Positions 52 to 13,135 of a stretch of 13,135 bases of DNA are shown in pieces. This DNA is from Muribaculaceae bacterium (lineage in GTDB: Bacteria; Bacteroidota; Bacteroidia; Bacteroidales; Muribaculaceae). How positions within the stretch are numbered: the first letter of the stretch is position 1; every line of letters starts with the position of its first letter. The notes under the pieces are model-generated. The model was not told the DNA's origin. It ran no database searches and worked only from the letters and a program-made list of their open reading frames with translations. Location: positions 1 to 13,135 of the forward strand of contig JAIDTS010000548.1 in NCBI GenBank assembly GCA_029060585.1. The letters are read 5' to 3'. A program made the position numbers and the translations under genes.

Positions 52-61
52 TAGAAAACTT

Positions 62-124
62 CTGGCGGAGGGCGATGTTTTCCTTCTCAAGTTCTGATTC
101 GCGGGGAGAGGTGGCGATGTGGAG
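62..124 (-). pseudogene. Repressor 3'-end remnant (third tail)
   Basis: Read on the minus strand these 63 bases encode LHIATSPRESELEKENIALR plus Q, the start of the coiled-coil tail found at the end of repressor-type proteins in this window. By hand alignment about 55 of 63 bases match positions 2388-2450 of the second tail, without gaps. It starts four bases after the stop codon of the STAS-like gene, in another reading frame and with no start codon, and homology stops abruptly before the terminator. It is a recombination scar, not a gene. Tails 2 and 3 belong to one sequence type; tail 1 and the intact repressor belong to another. Confidence 0.7.
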
Positions 125-128
125 ATTT

Positions 129-470
129 TTAGATAGCCTCGAAGAATTCCTGCATGTCCTTCAGAGTATTGAGATGATATACTTTGGCATTCATGTGAGG
201 ATATTCACGAGGTTCTTTTCTTCCTCTAACAACCAAATCATACATCATCTTTACATCACCTTCCATTCCTGTTATTGAAAGCTTAGGATAGTCTATCATG
301 AGATTACAAATCTCGTCTCCTACCGAGCGAGATATGAATACTACTCCGGAGAAATCAAGTGTGGAGTCTTCATTATACCTGTCAAGGAGTCGCTCGATGT
401 CACGACGAAAAAACGAACGGGTTCTCAGATCACTTCCAAGATGGTTCGATATCGATATTACAGTTTTCAT
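129..470 (-). CDS. STAS-like domain protein (DUF4325 type)
   Basis: This 113-residue protein resembles the short STAS-like (DUF4325) family. The recognisable part is a hydrophobic strand running into DFSGVVFISRSVGDEICNLM (about residues 39-58), matching the family pattern of F-GV--IS-S-ADE, followed by a predicted helix. There is no membrane segment or signal peptide. STAS-fold proteins usually act as small phospho-regulated or ligand-responsive partners rather than enzymes. No ATPase partner of the kind sometimes found beside DUF4325 genes is seen, though one could lie outside the window. It is the last intact gene of the leftward operon, 126 bases after the HIRAN gene, and is followed at once by a repressor-tail remnant and terminator. 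The ATG at 470 follows an A/T-rich leader and I see no better start. The family call is fairly safe; the function is unknown. Confidence 0.7.
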   Translation of the reverse strand: MKTVISISNHLGSDLRTRSFFRRDIERLLDRYNEDSTLDFSGVVFISRSVGDEICNLMIDYPKLSITGMEGDVKMMYDLVVRGRKEPREYPHMNAKVYHLNTLKDMQEFFEAI

Positions 471-596
471 AATAATCAGCTAAAGATCATTGAACACTGA
501 AGTATTTAATTGAAACATGAGATTTTATCACGAAGTTCTATCTGGAGTCTTGAATAGAAACTGTTTAATGTTACTAGATATAACATCTTTTGTTTA

Positions 597-1319
597 TCAA
601 TATTTGATATCGATCCTAACATATAATTTCTCAAATTCAGGCACATTCGTATATCGCCATACTGATAGTTTTACTCCATTTAGATTCCTTCTTCTAAAAA
701 TTGTATTGTGACCTTTCTTTATATATCCGATTTTTTCGCCCTTGAAACTCACAAATACAGCATTCTGATCAAACTGATTTCCTGGTTCTTTCTCATAATC
801 TAAAGTATCGCCAATTGTAAGCTTAGACAAATCGAACTCACTTACTGAAAGACCGGCTATGTCAGTGATAAATGAATGCTTATGATTGCTGAAATATTGA
901 GGTACGAATTCAAACATATCGCCAAGAGATAAACCCTGAGTTTGTGCAAGTACATAGAGTTTATTATTTACCTGTTCTTTATCAACTAACCAAAAATCAT
1001 AGAAATCATCCGCGTCGGATCTATTATTATTTATCAAACGTCCAAAAAAGACTTCTGAAATTTGAAGGGAACTGAAAGATTCCTGGTCCAAAGGCAATCC
1101 GGGATAACCGCAAAAATTATTATCTACTTTTTTAGCTTTTTCAACACCATCGGTTGAATATTCAAATTTCAGATCATTACCGTCCTTGGACACAATAATA
1201 GATCCGACATCGATACGACGATGCCCTTTCCCAGGTCTCCACATAAGGGAGATACGTGAAAAATCATACTTATTTGCCATAATCAATGAGTTTAGAATAT
1301 ATGTAGTTAATACGAGCAT
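597..1319 (-). CDS. HipA N-lobe-like protein with C-terminal HIRAN domain
   Basis: Up to 240 residues. The first part looks like the small N-terminal subdomain of HipA kinases: a beta-rich stretch, then GYPGLPLDQESFSS (71-84) and FFGRLINNNRSDADDF (91-106), in the manner of the LPL and ff-nLLPEG-xR segments. The C-terminal part, about 147-235, is a HIRAN domain: FITDIAGLSV, GDTLDYEKEPGNQFDQNAVF and KGEKIGYIKK are its hallmark segments. HIRAN domains bind DNA, with 3' single-stranded ends as the known ligand in HLTF. The first ATG (1319) follows the kinase stop codon directly (TAGATG), so translation is probably coupled. An internal ATG at 1280, before ANKYDFSR, also has an A/T-rich leader and would give 227 residues. 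Together with the kinase it looks like a split HipA, in which N-lobe and catalytic core are separate chains, as in HipBST. The pairing is inference. Confidence 0.65.
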   Translation of the reverse strand: MLVLTTYILNSLIMANKYDFSRISLMWRPGKGHRRIDVGSIIVSKDGNDLKFEYSTDGVEKAKKVDNNFCGYPGLPLDQESFSSLQISEVFFGRLINNNRSDADDFYDFWLVDKEQVNNKLYVLAQTQGLSLGDMFEFVPQYFSNHKHSFITDIAGLSVSEFDLSKLTIGDTLDYEKEPGNQFDQNAVFVSFKGEKIGYIKKGHNTIFRRRNLNGVKLSVWRYTNVPEFEKLYVRIDIKY

Positions 1320-2306
1320 CTATGAGTTTAACAATAAATTGTTTTCGTTTGTTTGATATCCGAAAGTCGTTAAAAGTTTCCTCTGGTATCTATCATCCAT
1401 GTGCTCGATATGATATGTCAATTCATCAAAACTGTAGTTAGACAAATGATGTGAAATAAAATGAGAACATTCATTAGGGTATTTTTCCAATAGACAATCA
1501 ATAGTTTCCAAGAATGTCATTTTCTCTTCACCTACAATTATATCCGATTTTCCATTTGAGAAAAATCTATCAAACAATGTTTCATTCTCTAATAGAGTAG
1601 AGATTCGTTCTTCCGACAGTTCTCTTCCCAAACTGCTTCCATTATCATAAAAAGGAGCAAATGTATGCCTTATTATGGCAAGGAGCTTAGGAACTTTAAG
1701 TAATGGAATTTTAAATTCCCTGTGTATGTTCCAGTATGTCTTGTATCTTTTATAAAATATTTGTTTACTTAGCTTGGAATTTAAGTTCTCACCTTCCTTA
1801 TTTCTTATCAATGCCCAATTCTCAGAATGCCTATCAGTATTGCCAATTATACAATCAAACAAGACCATTTCTACGGCTATTCTTCGGTATTCTATCAAAC
1901 CAACAGATTTTAATGCTCGTTCAATTTTTTCAAAATGATGATTCGTCTTGCATATTTCTCTAAAATTTGGTTCTACTTGGAGTATGAAATTCACACCTTC
2001 TATCAATTCTTCCTTTTTGATATCAATCATATTTTCTGAGAGACATCCAATTTTATCGCCGTAGCTTGCTATGTGATAATGCAATACTGGAAGTTTCAAA
2101 AGCATTCCAAGCCTATCAGCAGCAATCTCAGACCAGAACTCAAAAGGATAAATCTTCTTGTTCTGGTTAATAGATGTTTTGAAATAAAATGTTTGACCGG
2201 ATGGTGCGATAAAGATAGCTTTATCACGAGTTCCAGTAGTATTGACTTCTGGAATTTTTATCCATGAGTCAAGTTTGAAGTATATAGGTGGTTCAAAAAT
2301 TCTCAT
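1320..2306 (-). CDS. HipA-like serine/threonine kinase, catalytic core
   Basis: A 328-residue HipA/CtkA-type kinase without the usual N-terminal subdomain. Visible motifs: nucleotide-binding lysine in TFYFKTS (K43), helix residue E60 in EFWSEIAADRLG, catalytic loop FDCIIGNTDRHSENW (D151, N156, D158, H160, N163) and metal-binding FAPFYDNGSSLG (D221). All residues needed for phosphotransfer appear present, so it should be active. Between the catalytic loop and the DNG motif lies a longer-than-usual basic insert (about 168-215), which could take the place of the family's autophosphorylated regulatory loop. The known relative HipA phosphorylates glutamyl-tRNA synthetase; the substrate here cannot be read from sequence. 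The ATG lies three bases after the stop codon of a repressor-tail remnant, so its ribosome-binding region is made of tail sequence. No HipB-like gene is adjacent; the only HTH gene of the operon is the repressor 2 kb upstream. Confidence 0.75.
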   Translation of the reverse strand: MRIFEPPIYFKLDSWIKIPEVNTTGTRDKAIFIAPSGQTFYFKTSINQNKKIYPFEFWSEIAADRLGMLLKLPVLHYHIASYGDKIGCLSENMIDIKKEELIEGVNFILQVEPNFREICKTNHHFEKIERALKSVGLIEYRRIAVEMVLFDCIIGNTDRHSENWALIRNKEGENLNSKLSKQIFYKRYKTYWNIHREFKIPLLKVPKLLAIIRHTFAPFYDNGSSLGRELSEERISTLLENETLFDRFFSNGKSDIIVGEEKMTFLETIDCLLEKYPNECSHFISHHLSNYSFDELTYHIEHMDDRYQRKLLTTFGYQTNENNLLLNS

Positions 2307-2309
2307 TAA

Positions 2310-2527
2310 TTACAAAGAACATTTAATATTTTCTGATGTCTCTTTTTCCATTAGGCGGATGATTTTGGACTGGGCTTCGATGAGCTGCTGGCGGAGGGCG
2401 ATGTTTTCCTTCTCCAGTTCCGCTTCGCGAGAAGAGGTACCTATGTGGAGGTCGCGGCCGCCTGACTGTGGTCGGTGGCATTGATTGTCATCACTCCCCT
2501 GCTTTCATCTAACATCTCCATATTCAT
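2310..2527 (-). pseudogene. Repressor 3'-end remnant (second tail), frameshifted
   Basis: On the minus strand this reads MLDESRGVMTINATDHSQ, then after a frame change GRDLHIGTSSREAELEKENI and a further coiled-coil stretch up to a TAA at 2310-2312. It matches the linker and coiled-coil tail of the intact repressor (NESRGGVTVSATDNSQAAGR onward). Compared with tail 1 it lacks four bases near 2455-2462, within GCGGCCGC, which breaks the frame; as it stands, the ATG at 2527 would give only a short peptide ending at a TAG. There is no HTH-coding part. The sequence ends three bases before the HipA-like start codon, the same placement the intact repressor has before its own downstream gene. Confidence 0.8.
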
Positions 2528-2593
2528 GGATTTTTTTGTTATTATTGTATAAGATCATATAACTTTCAACTAATGCAACAAATCCTGTACATA

Positions 2594-3145
2594 TTACTTA
2601 CTTTTGTTCTTCCTGCTTGTATCGGTAGCGGTATCCTTTGTCTTATAGGCTTGATCATTGAGATTGTCAGTGATCTGCCGAGCACCATCAAGGACTTCAT
2701 CCGTCGCCCCAATCTTACCGACCTTCGCTTCATTCTTCATGATATCGCTCTCATAATGGGGAGCATCCTTTTCATATGCATTGGTGTGATGGGCATCATA
2801 GCATCCCTTACAGCATAAAACAAAAGAGCAAAAAGCAGAAAGCACAGCTGCCAACGCTGAAAGGTAGACGGATATACGCTGACGCTTGGCGGCGTTCTCC
2901 TCATTTGCCTTATTCGTGAAATATTGAGAATGATACAGCCATTCCATGGCAGGAGTCATAGTGGTCCAATCATGCGAAGCATTCATTATGTGCAATTCAT
3001 GCAGCAATGCCTTGTAATCAGCAGTGCCATATAGCATTTTGCAACTTTGTTCGGATATGAATTCACCTTTGGCAACTCTCTGGTGAAGATCGTCTATGAT
3101 CTCTTGGCATCTGATATAATATTTCCGTCGTCGCTTTTCTGACAT
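2594..3145 (-). CDS. Single-pass membrane protein of unknown function
   Basis: I do not recognise a family for these 183 residues. The N-terminal 90 residues are charged and helical (SEKRRRKYYIRCQEIIDDLH), with an aromatic patch AMEWLYHSQYF near 66-76. One membrane segment follows at about 91-110 (SVYLSALAAVLSAFCSFVLC), and the remaining 70 residues are very hydrophilic. It starts 25 bases after the stop of repressor tail 1, with a GATTGCATTATG leader like the GATTCATTATG before the HIRAN-BRCT gene. Co-direction with the operon and placement right behind a repressor tail favour it as a real gene. A caution: the opposite strand at 2573-2818 has an 81-codon frame in the same codon register, encoding a hydrophobic two-segment peptide; hydrophobic and hydrophilic codons mirror each other here, so the C-terminal 70 residues could instead be the shadow. 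Confidence 0.5.
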   Translation of the reverse strand: MSEKRRRKYYIRCQEIIDDLHQRVAKGEFISEQSCKMLYGTADYKALLHELHIMNASHDWTTMTPAMEWLYHSQYFTNKANEENAAKRQRISVYLSALAAVLSAFCSFVLCCKGCYDAHHTNAYEKDAPHYESDIMKNEAKVGKIGATDEVLDGARQITDNLNDQAYKTKDTATDTSRKNKSK

Positions 3146-3170
3146 AATGCAATCCTGTCAATTAAATTAT

Positions 3171-3368
3171 TTATTTGGTCTTGAGCTCGGATATGCGCTC
3201 TTTGAGTTCGGAAATGCGCTCGTCTTTTTCCTTGACTATGGCTTCAAGATACTTAACTCTTTCTGCTAAAATAGCATCTTCTGTTGACACATGGATGTCT
3301 CGGCCAGCTGCTTGACTGTGGTCGGTGGCATTCACTGTAACTCCTCCCCTGCCTTCATCGAAATCTAA
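3171..3368 (-). pseudogene. Repressor 3'-end remnant (first tail)
   Basis: The minus strand encodes 65 residues in one open frame starting LDFDEGRGGVTVNATDHSQA and ending RISELKTK before a TAA at 3171-3173. By hand count about 50 of 61 residues are identical to the C-terminus of the intact repressor, aligned without gaps. It has no start codon and no HTH. It begins three bases after the TAA of the HIRAN-BRCT gene, in the same frame, so two consecutive TAA codons separate the two. It ends 25 bases before the next gene. It is thus a clean truncation of a repressor whose cargo gene survives downstream. Confidence 0.85.
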
Positions 3369-3371
3369 TTA

Positions 3372-4355
3372 TTAACATAATAAGAAAGAAATTGCAACTA
3401 TACTGATAAAAATAACAGCTATTACACTTGCGCACCCATTGGATGAATTTTGAGCCTGATTCGAAGAAATCCGAATTTCCGGTTCGTGAGAACGTATTAT
3501 GGGTCTCTCATTTGTAGTCCTGTATTGCCTGCTATTAGATTTAATATCTATTGAAGAATCTAAGTCTTCGTAACCAAGTAATTCAGAGACTGAGACAATG
3601 GTTTTACCATCCTCAATAGCCTTACTTACAGTAGCAGTATTCGTCCATTTATCCCATTTTATGAGAACATCTGTAGTTCGTTTCTTATATCTTTGAGTTA
3701 AACGTGCACCATGTTCAATTAAATAGCGAGCGGCCAATTCTGCATCCATTGTCTCCCGATTTGATGCAAAAGCCACTTCCTTTCCAAAGAACCTTTCGTC
3801 TCGCTCATCTTCAGGTAAAGCTTCGGCAATAAAGTCGCATATATGAATTTCTTTGAAACTGAAGTTGCTACTTTCTTTCCGTGTCTTAACAATATCAGGA
3901 AGGGACTGATCATAGATGACATAGTCTGTGTCTTTCTTCAAACTACTGTTTATTATAGCACCAAATGATTTCGCTATAGCAACTACATCTGATTTGTAAA
4001 GCTTTACAAAATCACTACATATATACACTTTTTTACCTGTAAATGGCGATTCTGTTTTTTGGTGAGTGTCGTAGATTGCCACTCCTCCTCTATATACATT
4101 AGCAGAAGGAATAATTTCCAGAGAAATATTACATGGTAATTTCGCTATATTTTTGTTATTTGCCCACATTCTCACATATGCGGTAAGCTCACGCGGAATA
4201 TAACCCACTAATTTGTCAAATTCATTATATATGGCAATCGCATTTGAATCAAACGGATTATTCTCTGGCATAATATATCCTTTGAAGTTACCATGGTCTG
4301 AAGCGCGACAATGATGTTTTATTCCTGAAATATCACATGAAAACGGAGATCTCAT
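3372..4355 (-). CDS. HIRAN-BRCT-BRCT protein with C-terminal membrane anchor
   Basis: This 327-residue protein has an unusual order of domains. Residues 1-85 are a HIRAN domain (CDISGIKHHCRASDHGNFKG, PENNPFDSNAIAIYNE, KLVGYIPREL), a fold that binds DNA ends. Residues about 105-180 fit a BRCT domain (FTGKKVYICSD, then SFGAIINSSLKKDTDYVIYD), and about 189-263 fit a second (FFGKEVAFASN, LIEHGARLTQRYKKRTTDVL, SKAIEDGKTIVSVSELLGY). A polar linker leads to a hydrophobic C-terminus at 308-326 (CASVIAVIFISIVAISFLLC), which should anchor the protein with its N-terminal domains in the cytoplasm. BRCT domains bind DNA ends or phosphopeptides and bacteria usually carry a single one in DNA ligase LigA. 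No catalytic domain is seen. It starts 28 bases after the repressor stop, so it is co-transcribed with the repressor and likely made in the lysogen. A sensor of phage DNA or broken forks at the membrane is my inference. Confidence 0.7.
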   Translation of the reverse strand: MRSPFSCDISGIKHHCRASDHGNFKGYIMPENNPFDSNAIAIYNEFDKLVGYIPRELTAYVRMWANNKNIAKLPCNISLEIIPSANVYRGGVAIYDTHQKTESPFTGKKVYICSDFVKLYKSDVVAIAKSFGAIINSSLKKDTDYVIYDQSLPDIVKTRKESSNFSFKEIHICDFIAEALPEDERDERFFGKEVAFASNRETMDAELAARYLIEHGARLTQRYKKRTTDVLIKWDKWTNTATVSKAIEDGKTIVSVSELLGYEDLDSSIDIKSNSRQYRTTNERPIIRSHEPEIRISSNQAQNSSNGCASVIAVIFISIVAISFLLC

Positions 4356-4383
4356 AATGAATCTTGTTATCTTTCGTGAGTCT

Positions 4384-4752
4384 TTATTTATTCTTCAAAT
4401 CTTCAATACGTTCCTTGAGCTCGGAGATGCGCTCGTCCTTTTCCTTGACTATGGCTTCGAGGTATTTTACTCTCTCGGCCATCAGGGCATCCTCGGGAGC
4501 AACGTGGAGGTCCCGCCCTGCCGCCTGGCTGTTGTCGGTGGCAGAAACTGTCACTCCACCCCTGCTCTCATTAAAGAAAAAAGTTGAGGAGATATGATAT
4601 ACCTTGCATAGCCTCTCGATTAATCCAGTCTTGATATCTTTGGTTTTAAGAATTCCATCAAGATTTTGTGGGGTCATATCAAGTTTTCTTGCAACATTCG
4701 CAAGTGTCTCATCTAAAGACAGTAAGCTTATTTTTAATTCTTCTCCCGTCAT
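4384..4752 (-). CDS. HTH repressor with C-terminal coiled coil
   Basis: A 122-residue DNA-binding protein. Residues about 12-50 form a helix-turn-helix of the phage-repressor kind (ETLANVARKLDMTPQNLDGI, then KTGLIERLCKVYHIS). A short linker NESRGGVTVSATDNSQAAGR is followed by a charged heptad-like helix from about residue 88 to the end (ERVKYLEAIVKEKDERISEL), well suited to dimerisation. There is no LexA-like peptidase domain, so induction would not go by RecA-driven self-cleavage. It is divergent from the early gene at 4875 and the space between holds a symmetric operator, so it probably represses the rightward promoter and possibly itself. It heads the leftward cargo operon. Three partial copies of its linker and tail lie further along that operon. 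Confidence 0.8.
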   Translation of the reverse strand: MTGEELKISLLSLDETLANVARKLDMTPQNLDGILKTKDIKTGLIERLCKVYHISSTFFFNESRGGVTVSATDNSQAAGRDLHVAPEDALMAERVKYLEAIVKEKDERISELKERIEDLKNK

Positions 4753-4767
4753 AATCGAGCCACAATT

Positions 4768-4848
4768 ATAAAGTTAATTTATGTTAATTCTATAAAGTAT
4801 TTACTTGATATATCAAATTAATACTTTATCTTTGCACCATAAAGTTAA
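4768..4848. promoter_or_regulatory. Repressor operator cluster with 38-bp dyad
   Basis: Positions 4792-4829 form a near-perfect inverted repeat: ATAAAGTATT (4792-4801) pairs with AATACTTTAT (4820-4829) around the central palindrome TTGATATATCAA (4805-4816), all with the same centre and only two unmatched pairs in nineteen. Two further half-sites ATAAAGTTAA occur at 4768-4777 and 4839-4848, in the orientation of the left arm of the dyad. This spacing of one strong dyad plus flanking half-sites between divergent genes is what a dimeric, cooperative phage repressor would use. Confidence 0.75.
4805..4834 (+). promoter_or_regulatory. Rightward early promoter
   Basis: TATCTTTG at 4827-4834 matches the Bacteroidetes -7 element TAnnTTTG exactly; TTG at 4805-4807, 19 bases upstream, serves as the -33 element. 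Transcription would start near 4840, inside the flanking half-site at 4839-4848. The promoter lies within the operator dyad, so repressor binding would block it. Confidence 0.7.
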
Positions 4849-4874: not shown

Positions 4875-5159
4875 ATGGCAGAAAAAATTATTGGAAAGGA
4901 GCAGACGCTGTTCGATGGAGATCCTGCGGTGGAGGTAGTTCTACCGGTGGCGAGAGAGTATCCGGAGGAGGAACGCAAGCCGATAAGGATCCGCCCGGTG
5001 CTGATGGCGCTGTCGACGGGGGAAGAGGCGAAATTCCCGATAGAGAAGATGAGGAGCATCCGCGCCATAGCGTCGGACTTAGGAGCGATCATGGACCGCA
5101 GGTATCAGACCCGCATAGACCGCGAGACACGCACCATCAGCGTCACCCGGACAGCTTAG
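4875..5159 (+). CDS. Small early protein of unknown function
   Basis: 94 residues from the ATG at 4875; an in-frame TTG at 4863 is possible but the ATG has the A-rich leader typical here. The protein is soluble, with an acidic N-terminal half (VAREYPEEERKPIRIRPVLM) and a basic, Arg-rich end (IMDRRYQTRIDRETRTISVT). The segment FPIEKMRSIRAIASDLGAIM looks like a helix, followed by a beta hairpin; this resembles small DNA-binding proteins, but I see no defined HTH. It is the first gene behind the repressor-controlled promoter, 35 bases before the methyltransferase, so it is made early on induction. A Cro-like or anti-repressor role is possible but not shown. Confidence 0.7.
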   Translation: MAEKIIGKEQTLFDGDPAVEVVLPVAREYPEEERKPIRIRPVLMALSTGEEAKFPIEKMRSIRAIASDLGAIMDRRYQTRIDRETRTISVTRTA

Positions 5160-5194: not shown

Positions 5195-6817
5195 ATGATC
5201 AACCTGCTCTACATAGACCTTTTCTGCGGAGCCGGGGGTACATCCACCGGAATCAACTCCGCAAGACTCGAAGGAGAAGAGTGCGCGAAGGTGATAGCAT
5301 GCGTAAACCATGACGCCAACGCCATAGCCTCCCATAGGGCCAACCATCCAGAGGCTATGCACTTCACTGAGGATATTCGGACTCTTGAACTGTCTCCGCT
5401 TGTAGACCACGTCCGGAAATGCAAGGACGAGAATCCGACAGCTCTGGTCGTTTTGTGGGCCTCGCTCGAGTGCACCAATTTCAGTAAGGCTAAAGGTGGC
5501 CAGCCGAGGGATCCGGACAGCCGGACATTGGCCGAGCATCTTTTCCGATATATCGAGGCTATCGACCCCGACTACATTCAGATTGAGAACGTGGAGGAAT
5601 TCCAAAGCTGGGGAGATGTTGATGAGAATGGCAGGCCAATCTCCATGGACCGCGGACGCTGCTATCTTCGCTGGGTTCGGAATGTAAAGAAGTATGGCTA
5701 CGACTTCGAGAGGAAGATAATGAATGCCGCAGACTACGGTGCATACACCTCTCGCAAACGATTCTTCGGAATCTTCGCCAAGAAAGGCCTGCCGATCGTG
5801 TGGCCGGAGCAGACTCATTGTAAGCGTAGCAATGCTGAATTCTTTGCTGATGAGCTTGAACCATGGAAACCGGTCAAGGAAGTGCTCGATTTTACCAATG
5901 AAGGAGATAGCATCTTCGGAAGAAAGAAACCTCTTTCTGAAAATACCCTCGCACGCATATATGCCGGACTTATCAAGTTCGTGGCCGGAGGCAAGGATGC
6001 TTTTCTCATCAAGTATAACTCCATCAATCAGAAGACAGGGAAGTATTGTCCGCCGTCAGTTGACGAGCCATGTCCAACTGTAGCATGTCAGAACCGACTA
6101 GGCCTCGCCAGGGTCTGTTTCCTTTCGAAGCAGTTCAGCGGAAGCCCCTACGACAAGAATGTGTCAGTGGAAGAACCAGCAGGGACAATCACTACTATAG
6201 ATCATCACGCATTTGTGTCGGTCTGCTATGGCAACGGCTATAACAAGGGTGTCGACGATCCGGCACCGACATTGACAGCCAAAGATAAGCTTGCACTTGT
6301 CAATGTACATTTCATAGACAACCAATATGGCAATGGCAAGCCGACATCTGTTGACTCGGTCTCCGGCTCAATAATGACAAACCCAAAGCAGAAGCTTGTG
6401 ACGTGCGACCGGTTTCTGATGAACCCTCAGTTTGAATCGGCAGGATCATCGGTCGAAGACCCATGTTTCACATTGATTGCCCGGATGGACAAGCGGCCCC
6501 CTTATTTGGTGATGACCGAGACTGGAAACGTAGCCATCGAGATATATGAGACCGATTCACCGATGACCCGCAAGATTAAGGAATTCATGGCTATGTATTC
6601 CATCATCGACATCAAGATGCGTATGCTCATGATTGAGGAAATTAAGCTAATCCAAGGATTCCCTCGTGATTATGTACTTATCGGGACTCAAGCTGAACAG
6701 AAGAAGTTTCTCGGGAATGCGGTTGAGGTAACTGTCGCCAGAAAATGGTGCGAGGCACTCTGCGCATGCCTGCGAGATTTTGATTTGACGGACTATCATT
6801 CAAGACAAGCAGCTTAG
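5195..6817 (+). CDS. Solitary DNA cytosine-5 methyltransferase
   Basis: A 540-residue C5-cytosine DNA methyltransferase using S-adenosylmethionine. Motif I is DLFCGAGGTSTG (8-19), motif VI is ENV (131-133), motif VIII is TSRKRFF (185-191), motif IX is EIKLIQGFP (482-490) and motif X is GNAV (507-510). The catalytic motif IV reads SLECTNFS (90-97) with the nucleophile C93, in place of the usual PPCQ-FS. Between motifs VIII and IX is a long target-recognition region with five degenerate repeats of a core like SVEEPAGTITTIDHHAFVSV at about 288, 324, 352, 385 and 419. It is longer than most 350-400 residue family members because of this region. No restriction endonuclease is nearby, so it probably protects phage DNA against host restriction, as in many temperate phages. 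Co-directional with the early gene 35 bases upstream. Confidence 0.92.
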   Translation: MINLLYIDLFCGAGGTSTGINSARLEGEECAKVIACVNHDANAIASHRANHPEAMHFTEDIRTLELSPLVDHVRKCKDENPTALVVLWASLECTNFSKAKGGQPRDPDSRTLAEHLFRYIEAIDPDYIQIENVEEFQSWGDVDENGRPISMDRGRCYLRWVRNVKKYGYDFERKIMNAADYGAYTSRKRFFGIFAKKGLPIVWPEQTHCKRSNAEFFADELEPWKPVKEVLDFTNEGDSIFGRKKPLSENTLARIYAGLIKFVAGGKDAFLIKYNSINQKTGKYCPPSVDEPCPTVACQNRLGLARVCFLSKQFSGSPYDKNVSVEEPAGTITTIDHHAFVSVCYGNGYNKGVDDPAPTLTAKDKLALVNVHFIDNQYGNGKPTSVDSVSGSIMTNPKQKLVTCDRFLMNPQFESAGSSVEDPCFTLIARMDKRPPYLVMTETGNVAIEIYETDSPMTRKIKEFMAMYSIIDIKMRMLMIEEIKLIQGFPRDYVLIGTQAEQKKFLGNAVEVTVARKWCEALCACLRDFDLTDYHSRQAA

Positions 6818-6823
6818 AAACTA

Positions 6824-6958
6824 ATGGCGAGGACTAAGGAATGCACTGAGTGCTGGAAGGGAATCAACTGCTTCAATGGGAGATACTGCACGGAATTGCG
6901 GCGGATGGTGGAATACGCGCCGGTGCCACCCTGCAGGAAAATTATAAACACTAAATGA
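6824..6958 (+). CDS. Tiny cysteine-rich protein
   Basis: A 44-residue frame starting six bases after the methyltransferase stop. It has five cysteines: C7 and C10 as CTEC, then C16, C22 and C37 (KECTECWKGINCFNGRYC, PPCRK). The CxxC followed by spaced Cys suggests a zinc-binding knuckle. Tight spacing to the methyltransferase and a clean Cys pattern argue that it is real despite its size. Function unknown. Confidence 0.6.
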   Translation: MARTKECTECWKGINCFNGRYCTELRRMVEYAPVPPCRKIINTK

Positions 6959-6978
6959 TAATACAAAAATGGATGATA

Positions 6979-7686
6979 CTATTGCCCAAGCAGAACACGC
7001 CTTAGATGAATCACATATTTTGAGACCGCTGGAATTTCTGACTCCAGATGAGAGAGAAGAGATTCAAGCGACTGCCATTGAGTTGAGTCGCCTATGCCGG
7101 AGACTATGCGCAATAGATAGGGAGTGGTGCGTAAGAGAGGCTGCATCGCGTCGGCGATCACACTATAATGCTGCCGATGATAATGGTAATCTCCGAGAAG
7201 AGGCAACCAAGGCCTCACAGATCCATTCAGAAGGAACTCTTCCTTCAGAAATGGGTCGACAGGAAGGTGATTGTCATGATAGTCCCGGAGAATCGGGCAT
7301 GCATGGTTCAGGCCCCTTGTGGCACATAAATCTGAATATCCAAGCCGCCATATCACGAATCGGGACGCTGCTTCGCATAGAGTCTCTTCAAACCACTTCA
7401 GACCTGAGAGACGTCCTTCCATCGGTCCATCTATCAGATGATGAAGATACTCATGGGCATACTGGTATATCCATTGTCCATAATAGTTTTCGGTAGCAGA
7501 TAGAGAAATAATTCGTCGGGCATTGTCATTTCTGCATTCCGGATCTCCAGCCTTATGAACAATAACAAGTAATCTGGGTGAAGTCAGCCCTGAATATTTC
7601 TCCAATATATCTGTAGTAAGCTCCAATAATCCAACTATCGTCGGGCTATGGAAATATCCAAACCCCTCGGAATATAATTCTATCAT
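6979..7686 (-). CDS. HEXXH zinc metallopeptidase-like protein, antisense to its neighbours
   Basis: A 235-residue protein from the ATG at 7686. It contains HEYLHH at residues 78-83, the HEXXH zinc motif, and a glutamate-rich helix WFEETLCEAAS at 98-108, whose E101 or E105 is placed to be the third zinc ligand as in gluzincins. There is no signal peptide or membrane segment, so it should act in the cytoplasm. An in-frame ATG at 7725 would add 13 residues, but a TAnnTTTG promoter element (7713-7720) lies within that stretch, so transcription probably starts after it; I prefer 7686. It is the only minus-strand gene in the right arm, lying in a plus-strand early region, so it looks like separately promoted cargo (a moron). 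I do not recognise the exact family. A plus-strand frame across the same DNA (6969-7496) has no domain and is rejected. Confidence 0.75.
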   Translation of the reverse strand: MIELYSEGFGYFHSPTIVGLLELTTDILEKYSGLTSPRLLVIVHKAGDPECRNDNARRIISLSATENYYGQWIYQYAHEYLHHLIDGPMEGRLSGLKWFEETLCEAASRFVIWRLGYSDLCATRGLNHACPILRDYHDNHLPVDPFLKEEFLLNGSVRPWLPLLGDYHYHRQHYSVIADAMQPLLRTTPYLLRIVSGIGDSTQWQSLESLLSHLESEIPAVSKYVIHLRRVLLGQ

Positions 7687-7696
7687 AATGATTGAT

Positions 7697-7730
7697 TTTG
7701 GTATTGCAAGTACAAAGTTAATCATTTTTG
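7697..7730 (+). promoter_or_regulatory. Possible promoter of the tRNA-like element
   Basis: TTTG at 7697-7700 and CATTTTTG at 7723-7730, 22 bases apart, resemble the Bacteroidetes -33/-7 pair with one mismatch and slightly long spacing. Transcription would begin just before the tRNA-like fold at 7745. It overlaps the putative minus-strand promoter, making a small divergent promoter region. Confidence 0.3.
7713..7720 (-). promoter_or_regulatory. Possible promoter -7 element of the metallopeptidase
   Basis: The minus strand reads TAACTTTG here, an exact match to the Bacteroidetes TAnnTTTG element, about 27 bases before the preferred start codon at 7686. A well-spaced -33 element is not evident (the nearest TTG is only 15 bases away), so this is tentative. 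Confidence 0.4.
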
Positions 7731-7744: not shown

Positions 7745-7822
7745 GTCGCGGTAGCTCAAGCGTTAGAGCGCGGTCCGGACGAGCAAGCGGACTGAGATGC
7801 GGGTGGAAGGCCCGTCCGCGAC
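7745..7822 (+). ncRNA. tRNA-like element with aberrant anticodon arm and T-loop
   Basis: A 78-base cloverleaf-like fold. The acceptor stem is a perfect 7 bp (GTCGCGG 7745-7751 with CCGCGAC 7816-7822). The D-arm follows after TA, with a perfect 4-bp stem GCTC/GAGC. The anticodon arm is abnormal: CGGTCCG pairs with CGGACTG over 7 bp with one G-T, leaving a 10-base loop GACGAGCAAG instead of 5 bp and 7 bases. The T-arm has a 5-bp stem GCGGG/CCCGT with one G-T pair, and a 7-base loop TGGAAGG lacking the conserved TTCRA. No CCA is encoded. No sensible anticodon can be assigned. It lies between the antisense metallopeptidase and the small gene at 7862, 40 bases upstream of that gene. It could be a decayed tRNA, a tRNA mimic, or a structured leader. 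Confidence 0.6.
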
Positions 7823-7861
7823 ACAAACCAAATACTAACAATCTAAATAAACACGCAAAAA

Positions 7862-8050
7862 ATGGAAAACGTATTGAAAATCGACTTTGATATGGGCAAG
7901 GTGAGCCTCATGGTCACCGACTGCCCCATCGAGTTCGCCGACTCCCTGATGGAAGTCAACAAAGAGATGGCGGAATATATGGAGACGCTCCGCATGGAGC
8001 TGATCAACAGGCGCGCCAAGATGAATATAGAACACTCAAAAGGATCATGA
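7862..8050 (+). CDS. Small acidic helical protein of unknown function
   Basis: 62 residues: a short beta-prone start (VLKIDFDMGKVSLMVTDCPI) followed by one long charged helix (SLMEVNKEMAEYMETLRMEL) and a basic tail. No recognised domain, signal peptide or membrane segment. Its TGA overlaps the ATG of the next gene (ATGA at 8047-8050), so the two are translationally coupled, and it may assist the DNA-binding protein that follows. The ATG at 7862 has an A-rich leader. Confidence 0.65.
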   Translation: MENVLKIDFDMGKVSLMVTDCPIEFADSLMEVNKEMAEYMETLRMELINRRAKMNIEHSKGS

Positions 8051-8388
8051 ACATGGAAGAGACAACGAAAAAGAAAACAGGTAAGACTCCCGGAGAAGGG
8101 ATGACCATAGCTAAACGTCTGGAGCGCATCGAGCGCCTGATAGCCATCGGCACGAAGGAAGTGCTCAACACCGCAGAACTGGCTCTCTATCTCAACATAT
8201 CGGAAAGCCGGATCCGATCCATCACATCAGAGCGCAGCATCCCCCACTACAAGAACGAATTCGGCAGGGTGTGCTATCTCAAGTCGGAGATCGACAAGTG
8301 GAGGCTCGGTGAAAAAGTCAAGACCAAGGAAGAGCTGAAACAGGAGGCTGCGGCCTACTGCGCTAAGAAACGACTGGAACGAATCTGA
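8047..8388 (+). CDS. Excisionase-like helix-turn-helix protein
   Basis: 113 residues with a MerR/excisionase-type (HTH_17-like) winged helix at about 38-88: EVLNTAELALYLNISESRIR contains the helix-turn-helix, and IPHYKNEFGRVCYLKSEIDK forms the wing and closing helix. The N-terminal 25 residues are basic and probably disordered; the C-terminal helix is charged. Such proteins bend DNA at attachment sites during excision or regulate phage early genes. An integrase lies 2.7 kb downstream, supporting a recombination directionality role, but a regulator is equally possible. The start overlaps the preceding gene by ATGA; an ATG two codons later (8053) is an alternative. It is followed by a terminator at 8419-8461. 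Confidence 0.75.
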   Translation: MNMEETTKKKTGKTPGEGMTIAKRLERIERLIAIGTKEVLNTAELALYLNISESRIRSITSERSIPHYKNEFGRVCYLKSEIDKWRLGEKVKTKEELKQEAAAYCAKKRLERI

Positions 8389-8550: not shown

Positions 8551-8796
8551 ATGGCAAAGAGTCCAATTAAGTTTTTAATCTTCGACATGATATGGCACAA
8601 AGCCATACAGGAGCTTCCGGAATATCAGCGCCTGGAAATGTATGAGGCGATCTTCGAATACGCACAGACCGGGCGGATGCCTGACAGCGTCACCGGCGTC
8701 AACCGATCGCTGCTAATGGTGATCTGCGACCGCATACCGGATACCCCTGCGGAGGATACCGACTTGGGGATTCAGGAAGAGTCAGAGACGGAATAA
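8551..8796 (+). CDS. Short DUF6291-type protein
   Basis: 81 residues. The core FDMIWHKAIQELPEYQRLEM followed by YEAIFEYAQTGRMPD matches, position by position in character, the start of the larger neighbour (FDLEWAEVLQEYSEEVRFEV, then YEAIIGYASSGTVPD). This is the N-terminal module of DUF6291 proteins, which occur beside replication genes in Bacteroidales phages. It lacks the basic linker and C-terminal part and ends in an acidic tail. It begins a new operon after the terminator and ends nine bases before its paralogue, so it looks like a tandem duplication reduced to one domain, possibly a modulator of the full-length protein. Molecular function is unknown. Confidence 0.65.
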   Translation: MAKSPIKFLIFDMIWHKAIQELPEYQRLEMYEAIFEYAQTGRMPDSVTGVNRSLLMVICDRIPDTPAEDTDLGIQEESETE

Positions 8797-8805
8797 GAAT
8801 CGCTT

Positions 8806-9762
8806 ATGAGCAAGAACACATTTGTCTTCGACCTTGAATGGGCGGAGGTGCTGCAGGAATATTCAGAGGAGGTCAGATTCGAAGTGTACGAGGCCATAAT
8901 AGGGTATGCGTCCTCGGGGACAGTTCCGGATCTGAAACCTCTGGCAAAAATGGCATTCTCCTTCATCAAGAAGCAGATGGACTACAACCGCGACCGCTAC
9001 GATGCCACCGTCGAGAAAAGGCGCGAGGCAGGGCGCAGCGGAGGACTGGCGCGGGCCGCAAAGATGAGCGAACAGAACCAGGCTGACGAAGCTAATGCTT
9101 CGGATGCGGAGCAAAACCAAGCAAACGTAGCAAATGCTACCAATGCCAAGCAAAGCCAGGCAAACGTAGCAAATCAAGCTGATATTGATATTGTAATTGA
9201 TAATGATATTGTAATTGATAATGATAAATTACTCTCTCTCCCTCTCGGCGTGGGGGGCGATGAAGAAGTTTTGATAAGGAAAGCATATCTGGATGTGTTT
9301 TTCGCCAATCCTAAAGCCACAGCCGACTTCATCAAGAGATGGGAGACCACGGCGGAGGAACTGCGCGAGACCTGCGAGACGGTGCTCGACGAATGGACGG
9401 TCTTCAACGAGACGCACGTCTCCGCGGAAGACGCGCGCAAGCACTTCGTCAGTGCAGTCAGGACGAGGTATGAGAAAAAGATCAGGCAAACTAAGGCGAA
9501 ATCCTCCAGGAGCAGCAGGTCCTCAGGTCGCGTCCATACCGGGACTCTCTCCGGCAAGGGCAAGGATGAGACTGACATCGAGAGGCTCGACCGGCAGCAG
9601 AAGGAGCGCGCCGAGGCATTCGAGAAGCAGGAAAAGGAGGCCGTCAAACCTGCCGAGTACATCAGGAGTCTCGGATATGATCCGAAGAAGGTCACCATGA
9701 TCCAGGTGCTCAATCCCGAATGGCGCGCCGCGCACCCTCCGACAATGAAAGAATCCACTTAA
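8806..9762 (+). CDS. DUF6291-type putative phage replication protein
   Basis: 318 residues. Residues 1-65 are the DUF6291 module (YEAIIGYASSGTVPDLKPLA, then AFSFIKKQMDYNRDRYD), followed by a basic segment typical of the family (VEKRREAGRSGGLARAAK). Residues 89-125 are three copies of a 13-residue Gln/Asn/Ala repeat (EQNQADEANASDA, EQNQANVANATNA, KQSQANVANQA). Then comes DIVIDND twice and an acidic hinge. About 160-225 is helical, with a DnaD-like feel, and the rest is a charged basic tail. Two-domain proteins with a repetitive linker at this map position often serve phage replication initiation. The DNA coding for the linker carries direct repeats and a sharp AT-rich block, as the lambda O gene carries the lambda origin. 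The replication role is inference. Confidence 0.65.
   Translation: MSKNTFVFDLEWAEVLQEYSEEVRFEVYEAIIGYASSGTVPDLKPLAKMAFSFIKKQMDYNRDRYDATVEKRREAGRSGGLARAAKMSEQNQADEANASDAEQNQANVANATNAKQSQANVANQADIDIVIDNDIVIDNDKLLSLPLGVGGDEEVLIRKAYLDVFFANPKATADFIKRWETTAEELRETCETVLDEWTVFNETHVSAEDARKHFVSAVRTRYEKKIRQTKAKSSRSSRSSGRVHTGTLSGKGKDETDIERLDRQQKERAEAFEKQEKEAVKPAEYIRSLGYDPKKVTMIQVLNPEWRAAHPPTMKEST
9070..9180 (+). repeat. 39-bp direct repeats, 2.8 copies, inside the DUF6291-type gene
   Basis: Units run 9070-9108, 9109-9147 and 9148-9180 (last copy short), each coding a 13-residue Gln/Asn/Ala block. The later copies share the string GCAAACGTAGCAAAT exactly. The repeat is codon-phased and sits just left of the AT-rich 18-bp repeat. 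Confidence 0.75.
9187..9222 (+). repeat. Two exact 18-bp AT-rich repeats, candidate origin unwinding element
   Basis: GATATTGTAATTGATAAT occurs twice without a gap (9187-9204, 9205-9222), flanked by partial copies GATATT before and GATAAA after. It is much more AT-rich than the surrounding gene. Next to the 39-bp repeats it resembles an iteron plus unwinding-element layout within an initiator gene. The origin role is inference. Confidence 0.6.
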
Positions 9763-11074: not shown

Positions 11075-11914
11075 GTGAACGCTACGGAATACATAGACCA
11101 TCTGGCCGAGGAGCGGCAGTTCCGGCCAAACACAGTAGCCAACTGGAAGGTAGCGGCGCGCAACTGGGAGCGAGCCGTCGGGGAGGTCGATATCGGCGAC
11201 ATCAGCAAGAAGACCGTCAGGATCTGGGCTGACTCGCTCCGGCGGCAGCACATAACCGCCAACACCGCCAACGCCTACATGCGGCAACTGCGGTCTGTCT
11301 ACAACAAGGCGGTCGAGGAGTTTTTCCTTGACCGCCCCAACCCGTTTAAGTATGTCATGATCGGACCGGAGGAGACTGTAAAGCGTGCGCTCGGCGAGCT
11401 TCAGATGCAGCGTCTCCGCACGATGGAGCTCACTCGGCGTGAGGCCAGGGCGAGGGATGTCTTCATGCTCACAGTCATGTTGAGGGGGATATCGCCATGC
11501 GACCTCTGGGGACTCCGGCCGAAGGATATCAGGGGCGACAGCCTCACTTACCGGAGAGCCAAGACCGGACGTCTTATCCAGATGCGTCTTGAGCCGGAGG
11601 CAAGTGAACTGATGAAGAGGTTGGGATTCGCCGACGGAAGTGAGCGGAATTTCCGCAACGAGTGTCACGGCATCAACGACCAGCTCAGGAAGATCGGCAG
11701 GAGGATGGGACTCCCCTTCGGACTCTCGCTCTACTGCGCCCGGCACACCTGGGCCACTGCCGCGCAGCGCGCCGGCGTGCCTCTGTCCATGATCAGCCAG
11801 AGCATGGGGCATGCAGATGAGAAGACCACCCAGATCTATCTCGCCGGTCTCGAGACGCCCGTCATGGACCGCTGGGGAAGAGACATCATAGACACCCTTT
11901 TCGGCACCGGATGA
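11075..11914 (+). CDS. int: Tyrosine recombinase (phage integrase)
   Basis: A 279-residue integrase of the lambda-Int/XerC superfamily. Residues 1-90 form a SAM-like core-binding domain (NTVANWKVAARNWERAVGEV, ANTANAYMRQLRSVYNKAVE). In the catalytic domain are the first arginine in MLRGISPCDLWGLRPKDI, the lysine hairpin YRRAKTGR, box II YCARHTWAT, MGHADEKTT, and the nucleophile tyrosine in QIYLAGL. The first histidine of H-x-x-R is a tyrosine (YCAR), a substitution common in Bacteroidetes recombinases. The start must be the GTG at 11075: two codons before it is the TGA of the preceding gene in the same frame, and the next in-frame ATG lies inside the core-binding domain. No arm-type DNA-binding domain is present. 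Spacing of six bases to the upstream gene indicates co-transcription with the replication module. Confidence 0.92.
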   Translation: MNATEYIDHLAEERQFRPNTVANWKVAARNWERAVGEVDIGDISKKTVRIWADSLRRQHITANTANAYMRQLRSVYNKAVEEFFLDRPNPFKYVMIGPEETVKRALGELQMQRLRTMELTRREARARDVFMLTVMLRGISPCDLWGLRPKDIRGDSLTYRRAKTGRLIQMRLEPEASELMKRLGFADGSERNFRNECHGINDQLRKIGRRMGLPFGLSLYCARHTWATAAQRAGVPLSMISQSMGHADEKTTQIYLAGLETPVMDRWGRDIIDTLFGTG

Positions 11915-12646: not shown

Positions 12647-12841
12647 ATGAACAAATATAAGGTTAAGGAAGTAATCCGGATGCTAATCGATGACGGTTGG
12701 GTTGAAATGTACACCAAAGGCGACCATAGGCAATTCAAGCATCCGACAAAGAAGGGCAAGGTGACTGTAAGAGGAAAGCCAAGTGAGACCTTGAGCCAGT
12801 TCCTTCTGAACAGTATCGCTAAACAGGCCGGTTGGCGATAA
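12647..12841 (+). CDS. hicA: HicA-type mRNA interferase toxin
   Basis: 64 residues, the normal length for HicA. It has the double-stranded-RNA-binding-like fold pattern: a helix with KEVIRMLIDDGWVE, strand MYTKGDHRQFKHP with the catalytic histidine in the GDHRQF position, strand KKGKVTVRG, and the helix ETLSQFLLNSIAKQAGW. HicA cleaves mRNA and is held inactive by HicB. The gene comes first in its own operon, with the antitoxin 40 bases downstream. In a phage such a pair may stabilise the prophage or abort superinfection. Confidence 0.9.
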   Translation: MNKYKVKEVIRMLIDDGWVEMYTKGDHRQFKHPTKKGKVTVRGKPSETLSQFLLNSIAKQAGWR

Positions 12842-12881
12842 GCGATCCCATTGATATATTCAACGTTGACATGACAGTTAT

Positions 12882-13135
12882 ATGGAAAAGATAAGGATAA
12901 AAGTAGAGGTAAGCTGGACCGATGATAATTTCTGCTGCGTATGGAATGATGAAGATGCAGGGACAGTTCTGGTTACGGCAAAAACACTTGAGAAGCTCAA
13001 AAGAGATTTCATAGAATCGCTTCGCCTTCATATAGAGGGATGTGTTAAAGACGGAGACATTCTTCCGGACTATCTTGTAAATGGGGATTATGAACCGGAA
13101 TATATTCTTGATACAGCCGCCCTATTGCGTGATGC
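12882..13135 (+). CDS. hicB: HicB-type antitoxin, cut by the window end
   Basis: The frame is open from ATG 12882 to the window edge, giving 84 residues without a stop. It starts EKIRIKVEVSWTDDNFCCVW and continues TLEKLKRDFIESLRLHIEGC, the strand-strand-helix pattern of the partially degraded RNase H fold in HicB, then a linker reaching PEYILDTAALLRDA, where the DNA-binding domain should begin. It neutralises HicA and usually represses the operon. An ATG at 12871 leads to a stop after seven codons and is not used. Confidence 0.85.
   Translation, partial: MEKIRIKVEVSWTDDNFCCVWNDEDAGTVLVTAKTLEKLKRDFIESLRLHIEGCVKDGDILPDYLVNGDYEPEYILDTAALLRD

Follow-up and report, generated by a model that had tools for sequence, protein, structure and literature searches.

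This report concerns a stretch of 13,135 bases from a Muribaculaceae bacterium (contig JAIDTS010000548.1, referred to as the window) and, within it, a phage-type repressor gene and the row of genes and gene remnants that it heads. Reading along the minus strand, from 4752 to 59, one meets an intact repressor, a gene for a HIRAN-BRCT protein, a first repressor tail, a gene for a 183-amino-acid (aa) protein, a second tail, a HipA-like gene with a HIRAN gene, a gene for a 113-aa protein and a third tail. The genes that are not repressor-derived are called cargo below. Judged from sequence comparison, tails 1-3 are the 3' ends of former repressors of at least two lineages, left between the cargo genes. 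As part of an explanation that is probable as a whole, the repressor at 4384-4752 and its co-oriented cargo would form the lysogeny operon of a Muribaculaceae temperate phage. The backbone of the window matches two loci in metagenome-assembled genomes, L001 (Muribaculaceae bacterium) and L002 (uncultured Porphyromonadaceae bacterium).

The intact repressor (4384-4752, minus strand, 122 aa) consists of a helix-turn-helix (HTH) half at about 4570-4752, with a GC content of 33.9%, and a linker and coiled-coil tail at about 4384-4569, with 54.6%. Its function in immunity is putative. CI-type immunity repressors carry an N-terminal HTH domain of the lambda/434 type. For the window's copy, Pfam gives HTH_26 at an E-value of 0.031, under the cut-off, and the best Foldseek matches in the PDB are HTH domains of the phage-repressor and LexA type, all with E-values of at least 0.054. 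Two related repressors, L001 B and L002, pass the Pfam HTH cut-offs and L001 A misses them. The predicted structure (mean predicted local distance difference test 75.4, predicted template modeling score 0.40) places four helices in residues 3-52 and one in 86-121, with low confidence for 63-85 between them, which would fit exchangeable halves on a flexible linker. A divergent gene (4875-5159, plus strand, 94 aa from 4875) lies next to the repressor at the left edge of the variable region and has relatives in L001, L002, and L020-L023. Between the two is a near-perfect 38-bp palindrome (4792-4829), which is presumably the operator; a divergent early gene with a palindrome between is a feature of CI-type repressors. 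The palindrome scores 13 against a 95th percentile of 9 in a single-base shuffle control. Five of 16 upstream regions (window, L002, L057, L032, and L033) hold palindromes above their own 95th percentile, and the one upstream of L001 A falls below it (10 against 11). The palindromes of the window, L002 and L057 differ in sequence.

Tail 1 (3171-3365, minus strand) has a linker and a coiled coil of subtype CC1 in an open frame, without an HTH half. Homology spans about 3174-3365, with the end of the stop codon at 3171, and 51 of 63 residues are identical to the end of the intact repressor. An earlier note on this DNA, made from its letters, had put this at about 50 of 61. Tail 2 (2310-2509, minus strand) has its linker at 2456-2509, a coiled coil of subtype CC2 at 2346-2468 and a stop at 2310. 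Tail 3 (59-124, minus strand) is a stub of 22 codons from the start of a CC2 coiled coil. Over 66 nucleotides (nt), tails 2 and 3 have 87.9% identity, in keeping with the earlier view that they form a second subtype and that at least two repressor lineages are represented. The tblastn E-values of tails 1, 2, and 3 against 20 loci (6e-32, 4e-18, and 9e-8) are far beyond chance. Repeat families in the window comprise 189 nt at 75% (3170/4383), 56 nt in three copies (2457, 3307, and 4520) and 66 nt at 86% (59/2385). Repeat search, translation and tblastn thus all agree with the original layout of one intact repressor and three 3' fragments on the same strand. The fragments had been described as linker and/or coiled-coil ends, and this holds, with the addition that the linker and coiled coil of tail 2 are in different frames, the frameshift falling at their joint.

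The junctions are tight. Tail 1 starts no more than 9 nt from the stop codon of the preceding cargo gene, and tail 3 about 4 nt past the stop of the gene at 129-470. The next cargo gene starts 28 nt after the repressor, 25 nt after tail 1 and 3 nt after tail 2, the range of 3-28 bases claimed before. Tails 1 and 2 do sit between cargo genes as claimed, but tail 3 follows the last of them and is itself followed by a GC-rich inverted repeat (26-51), seen in the sequence and presumed to be a terminator. Terminator scans did not accept this repeat; a near-identical one closes the L002 cargo region.

The tails are best read as scars and not as small genes, since tails 2 and 3 belong to another coiled-coil subtype and are broken, and tail 1 is relaxed. 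The evidence for relaxation is that three intact tails (window, L001 A, and L002) show 2.0-4.0 nonsynonymous differences among themselves over about 122 sites, and that tail 1 shows 9.0-12.5 from these three. By this excess, tail 1 has lost constraint. Synonymous differences are high for every tail pair (proportion of synonymous differences, pS, 0.60-0.84). Decay also rises with distance from the intact gene, over the three tails that there are. That would be expected if new units enter on the promoter side, and the gradient is suggestive of such entry. GC content is 46.9-58.3% in the tails (tail 1 lowest), 30.6-40.7% in HTH halves, 32.6-43.7% in cargo and 49.8-62.3% in sampled core genes. Like the phage core, the tails are for the most part rich in GC; HTH halves and cargo are rich in AT.

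The wider repressor family has a modular make-up. A first protein search gave 28 proteins, including the window's own. A protein search with the tail gave seven matches, six of them tail-only proteins of 49-65 aa (P0032-P0037). A profile search gave 238 matches, and the family analysis draws on 120 of these. Among the proteins with the linker motif (45 of 132, window protein and tail 1 included), seven HTH classes are paired in many ways with coiled-coil types CC1, CC2, and CC3; the classes are cut at 55% identity, and classes 1 and 3 lump subgroups. Five of the seven classes occur with at least two of the three types, a sixth has CC2 and one unclassified type, and the seventh is a single member. 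In 37 linker-bearing proteins of length 110 or more, HTH distance shows no correlation with coiled-coil distance (Mantel r 0.021, one-sided permutation p 0.26). The 666 pairs that these form, which are not independent, include 33 with at least 85% HTH identity and different coiled-coil types, and 34 with less than 40% HTH identity and at least 85% identical coiled coils. Identity profiles change over on either side of the stretch ATDHSQAAGRDLH. At the level of sequence, these comparisons show a repressor gene composed of an AT-rich operator/HTH half and a GC-rich linker/coiled-coil tail; among its relatives the two parts are found in many pairings, with a short conserved linker as the joint. 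The proposal that the HTH half is exchanged against a kept tail finds support both in the combinations and in the uncorrelated distances.

At the DNA level, blastn of the window with L001 and L002 shows the tails as homology islands, bounded by the stop codon of the repressor and by a break at or in the linker, which is where breakpoints had been predicted. Tail pairs of the same subtype share 72-88% of their nucleotides; the HTH halves share 55-66%, in forced alignments. The window shares its backbone but no cargo with L001 and L002, as is typical of a hotspot with different cargo in the same place. The cargo common to L001 and L002 is one distant small-protein family (26%). In L027, L032, and L033, homology stops at the repressor stop codon and different cargo lies behind similar repressors. 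The backbones of L021 and L022 have 98.4% identity, which runs to 65 and 93 bases ahead of the start of the repressor. Past that break there is no blastn homology through the repressor and the first cargo gene, and stretches at 72% resume nearer to and within the integrase gene.

Is the window a single oddity? A search of the genome collection with the tail gave two loci, L001 and L002, both in one genus. A scan for tails and HTH halves covered 24 loci (20 + 4), which had been found via tail or neighbor-gene searches and are not a random sample. An extra adjacent copy on the same strand is present in five: the window, L001, L002, L046, and L056. In L001, intact repressor A (7815-8183) and a 164-aa cargo gene are followed by repressor B (8762-9130), also intact but different, and a 63-aa cargo gene. 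L002 has an intact repressor and two cargo genes; the tail behind them starts at the linker/coiled-coil joint and overlaps the stop of the cargo. In L046 a coiled-coil fragment of 25 aa, of another subtype, lies between an intact repressor and the cargo. L056 has two different intact repressors in direct tandem at a contig end (6566-7413), with a gap of about 11 nt provided that an internal ATG is the start of the second. The idea of stacked units of repressor plus cargo is therefore supported by two units in L001, the tandem in L056 and the scars in L002 and L046. An additional HTH half in L030, on the opposite strand and without a tail, was left out of this count. Of the five scars, tails 1 and 2 start at the HTH/linker joint, tail 3 and the L002 scar at the linker/coiled-coil joint, and the L046 scar inside the coiled coil. 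Tail 2 and the L002 scar are 87.0% identical over 108 nt.

The best explanation, and a probable one, is layered repressor replacement that leaves the old tail and cargo in place. A phage would recombine, near its repressor, with another phage carrying a different repressor and cargo. A new set of operator, repressor and cargo would enter on the promoter side and the old HTH half would be lost. The old tail and old cargo would remain in the operon, and the old cargo would then be read from the promoter of the newest repressor. Because the tails have the linker and often the coiled coil in common, they might offer homology for further exchange by later phages. The direction of entry, homologous recombination at the tail and the coupling of immunity and cargo in one step are the conjectural parts of this scheme. 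A bolder version is possible but somewhat doubtful. It holds that the linker/coiled-coil tail is a reusable recombination anchor, that each immunity change deposits cargo, that the operon records earlier immunity types and defense genes in layers, and that stacks of two intact repressors (L001 and L056) would make a lysogen immune to two groups of phages (double immunity). Taken overall, the earlier interpretation is partly supported.

Several observations weigh against layered replacement, or at least do not fit it comfortably. The proteins were selected by the linker motif, which favors a conserved linker by construction, and conservation of the linker may stem from protein function. Nineteen of the 24 scanned loci have a single copy, although the contigs of L015, L020, L055, and L056 end beside the repressor and L027/L028, L020/L021, and L022/L023 are near-duplicates. 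The known scars total five, in three loci. The tail family is rare, with matches in 11 of 397 family genomes at E-values up to 1e-6 and, below 1e-38, only in two that were already known. The CC2 profile matches four of these 397 at 1e-4. Tail 1, at 46.9% GC, lies under the core-gene range. The differing cargo behind similar repressors in L027, L032, and L033 means that cargo can change alone; the coupling of an immunity switch and a gain of cargo in one event stays a proposal. L021 and L022 differ in both HTH and cargo, but several separate events would fit as well. Among the loci compared there is no pair of parent and recombinant in which a single event added cargo and swapped the HTH half. 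Lastly, the window's cargo genes had been expected singly behind other repressors, and in the genomes searched (17 or 111, depending on the gene) none was found behind any.

What else could have produced this arrangement? The chief rival is concatenation followed by deletion, in which whole units are joined in tandem and redundant downstream HTH halves are later deleted, the tail being passive. It reads the scars in the same way and differs mainly in the order of steps. The two intact repressors in L001 and in L056 fit it equally well, and the second repressor of L001 keeps a 68-nt upstream gap, in which a weak palindrome scores 7, the same as the 95th percentile of the shuffles. However, four of the five scars begin at the two joints of module exchange, which random deletion would not favor, and three of the four scars behind a cargo gene start within 9 nt of its stop or overlap it. 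This sequence of events is rather unlikely. Slightly more credible, while still improbable, is ordinary phage mosaicism, with illegitimate recombination of neighboring accessory genes chancing on repressor 3' ends and no link between immunity and cargo. The breaks at the stop codon in L027, L032, and L033 and the 19 loci without an extra copy are what it would predict. In addition, a hotspot of antiviral genes has been described between cI and integrase (PMC9122126), and the L002 cargo likewise lies between repressor and integrase gene. Three scars in one operon, two scars elsewhere, two double repressors and recurrent joints nevertheless seem to exceed a stray catch.

Two further alternatives deny that the tails are relics of replaced repressors. 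In one, they would be small genes under conservation, such as coiled-coil partners with a tuning effect on the repressor. Tail 1 does have an open frame of 54 codons from a GTG, and the tail proteins P0032-P0037 might be such genes, but gene callers can produce proteins like these from scars or contig edges. Tails 2 and 3, the one frameshifted and the other a stub, were rejected as small genes. The L046 fragment is also short, the L002 tail lacks linker and start, and tail 1 is relaxed. This makes the small-gene idea very improbable. The other alternative, duplication inside this genome, is hardly credible. Tail 1 and the intact tail are 75% identical in nucleotides, as a copy might be. However, tail 1 is nearer to L001 repressor A (82.0%) than to its intact neighbor (74.9%), and it was rejected as an in-genome copy. 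Tail 2 is about as near to the L002 scar as to tail 3, and two tail subtypes are present. For tail 3 alone, descent from tail 2 by copying remains conceivable.

The cargo of the window, all on the minus strand, is varied. The first gene (3372-4355) encodes the 327-aa HIRAN-BRCT protein (Pfam BRCT 3.2e-12, HIRAN 1.2e-5). The second (2594-3145) encodes the 183-aa protein, which has a hydrophobic stretch by eye and no family above cut-off. Behind tail 2, the HipA-like gene (1320-2306) matches PDC-M03A (PADLOC PDLC04340, 4e-45; Pfam HipA_C 4e-4, below cut-off) and the HIRAN gene (597-1319) matches PDC-M03B (PADLOC PDLC04348, 7.9e-20; Pfam HIRAN 8.1e-7). The two are adjacent on one strand, as expected of PDC-M03, and the pair is a candidate defense system. 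The 113-aa protein (129-470) is STAS-like by eye; family scans gave nothing above cut-off. The label "defense-like" rests mainly on the PDC-M03 pair. It does not extend to the 183-aa and 113-aa proteins, which match no defense model below 0.01 (best for the former, HEC-09 at 0.013). The HIRAN-BRCT protein matches PDC-M03B at 1.5e-4, through its HIRAN stretch only, and was the only one of seven further cargo proteins (three from the window, two each from L001 and L002) to match a defense model below 0.01. Such cargo may protect the lysogen against other phages.

Relatives of this cargo are scarce. None were found for the HIRAN-BRCT protein or the 183-aa protein in 17 chosen genomes, in searches run without a positive control, and none for the cargo in IMG/VR and phage collections. 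A PDC-M03A relative occurs in one of 111 genomes, at L060. It forms a pair related to that of the window (HIRAN 43% identical), with one internal stop in the HipA-like gene and a methylase-like gene, by eye, nearby. The 18 kb covered at this place contain no repressor tail or HTH half. Relatives of the L002 cargo pair (a 68-aa protein and a DUF2335 protein) occur in L057, where they follow another repressor and a HIRAN-matching first gene, and in L035, about 1.8 kb upstream of the repressor. A family of small proteins (63-106 aa) recurs near repressors (L001 9192-9383, L002 8229-8435, L057 5991-6206, and L035 5470-5790). In L002, L057, and L035 its gene precedes related membrane-type proteins, of which the one in L002 matches DUF2335.

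How does this compare with known systems? In exchange of the lambdoid immunity region, operator and DNA-binding part change together and flanking DNA is kept. Here, in contrast, the linker and coiled coil of the repressor itself belong to the flank that is kept, and scars of it build up. Integron-like cassette arrays consist of cargo units separated by repeats and read from one upstream promoter. The cargo units of the window are also divided by repeated sequence and presumably have one upstream promoter, but the repeat is protein-coding, decaying and present in copies that start at different joints. Repeats of this kind speak against an integron-type recombination site, although no search aimed at site structures was made. 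Hotspots of antiviral genes next to a phage repressor are already known, as are repressor halves under different pressures. Passages of PMC9122126 (2022) describe one such hotspot, in a Vibrionaceae P2-related phage, between cI and integrase, and propose homologous recombination in exchange between phages. Similar features are variable cargo, here with candidate defense genes among it, at a fixed place beside the repressor and, in L002, L021, and L022, cargo between repressor and integrase. The difference is that cargo there turns over between two conserved genes, as far as those passages go, whereas here the repressor takes part in the exchange and leaves 3' fragments between one cargo gene and the next. 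In the cluster A mycobacteriophage repressor Rep, the N-terminal HTH and the C-terminal region are under different evolutionary pressures (PMC6550527, in part). Two regions under different pressures are found here too, but in Rep the C-terminal region is the more diverse, and here it is the HTH half that varies, combined with a conserved tail of at least three coiled-coil types.

Repressor tails between cargo genes were not described in the literature searched by title and start of abstract, a scope outside which preprints and most subscription journals fall. Nor is such a layout mentioned in 12 of the 16 passages of the hankyphage paper on its repressor (PMC12135933). If layered replacement is correct, a temperate phage can switch immunity type and keep the accessory genes it already carries, and the order of acquisition can be read inside one operon. 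The conserved linker/coiled-coil sequence is also a handle with which to search Bacteroidales phages for accessory, possibly defense, genes. A locus with two repressors, such as L001, makes double immunity testable.

The phage character of the window comes from a tyrosine integrase gene (11075-11914) and from genes for a DUF6291 protein, a DNA C5 methylase, an excisionase-like HTH protein and a HicA toxin. A tyrosine integrase gene follows the L002 cargo region; the window ends after tail 3. Searches for related phages gave little. The repressor had no relatives among INPHARED phages and IMG/VR, tail alignments A2 and A7 had none in IMG/VR, and an order-wide tail search matched one of 393 genomes, G001 itself. 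The integrase alignment gave three weak loci in IMG/VR (L017-L019), which the analysis left aside, and matches in three of 397 family genomes at 1e-60.

Some smaller features of the backbone deserve mention. An RNA cloverleaf at 7745-7822 (plus strand) has a 7-bp acceptor-like stem and a tRNA D-arm-like sequence (minimum free energy -38.1, z -2.3), without a tRNA call by ARAGORN or Rfam; a second tRNA-like stretch lies in L046 at 3495. At 12647-13135 on the plus strand lie the HicA toxin gene (PF07927, 8.4e-18) and, after it, a frame that is HicB-like by eye, has no Pfam match and leaves the contig. Two HicA/HicB-like pairs can be seen by eye in L001. Finally, two long open reading frames on opposite strands, 6969-7496 (plus) and 6979-7725 (minus), show an almost complete overlap; by eye, L002 has a counterpart of each, at 6453-7118 (minus) and 6248-6985 (plus).

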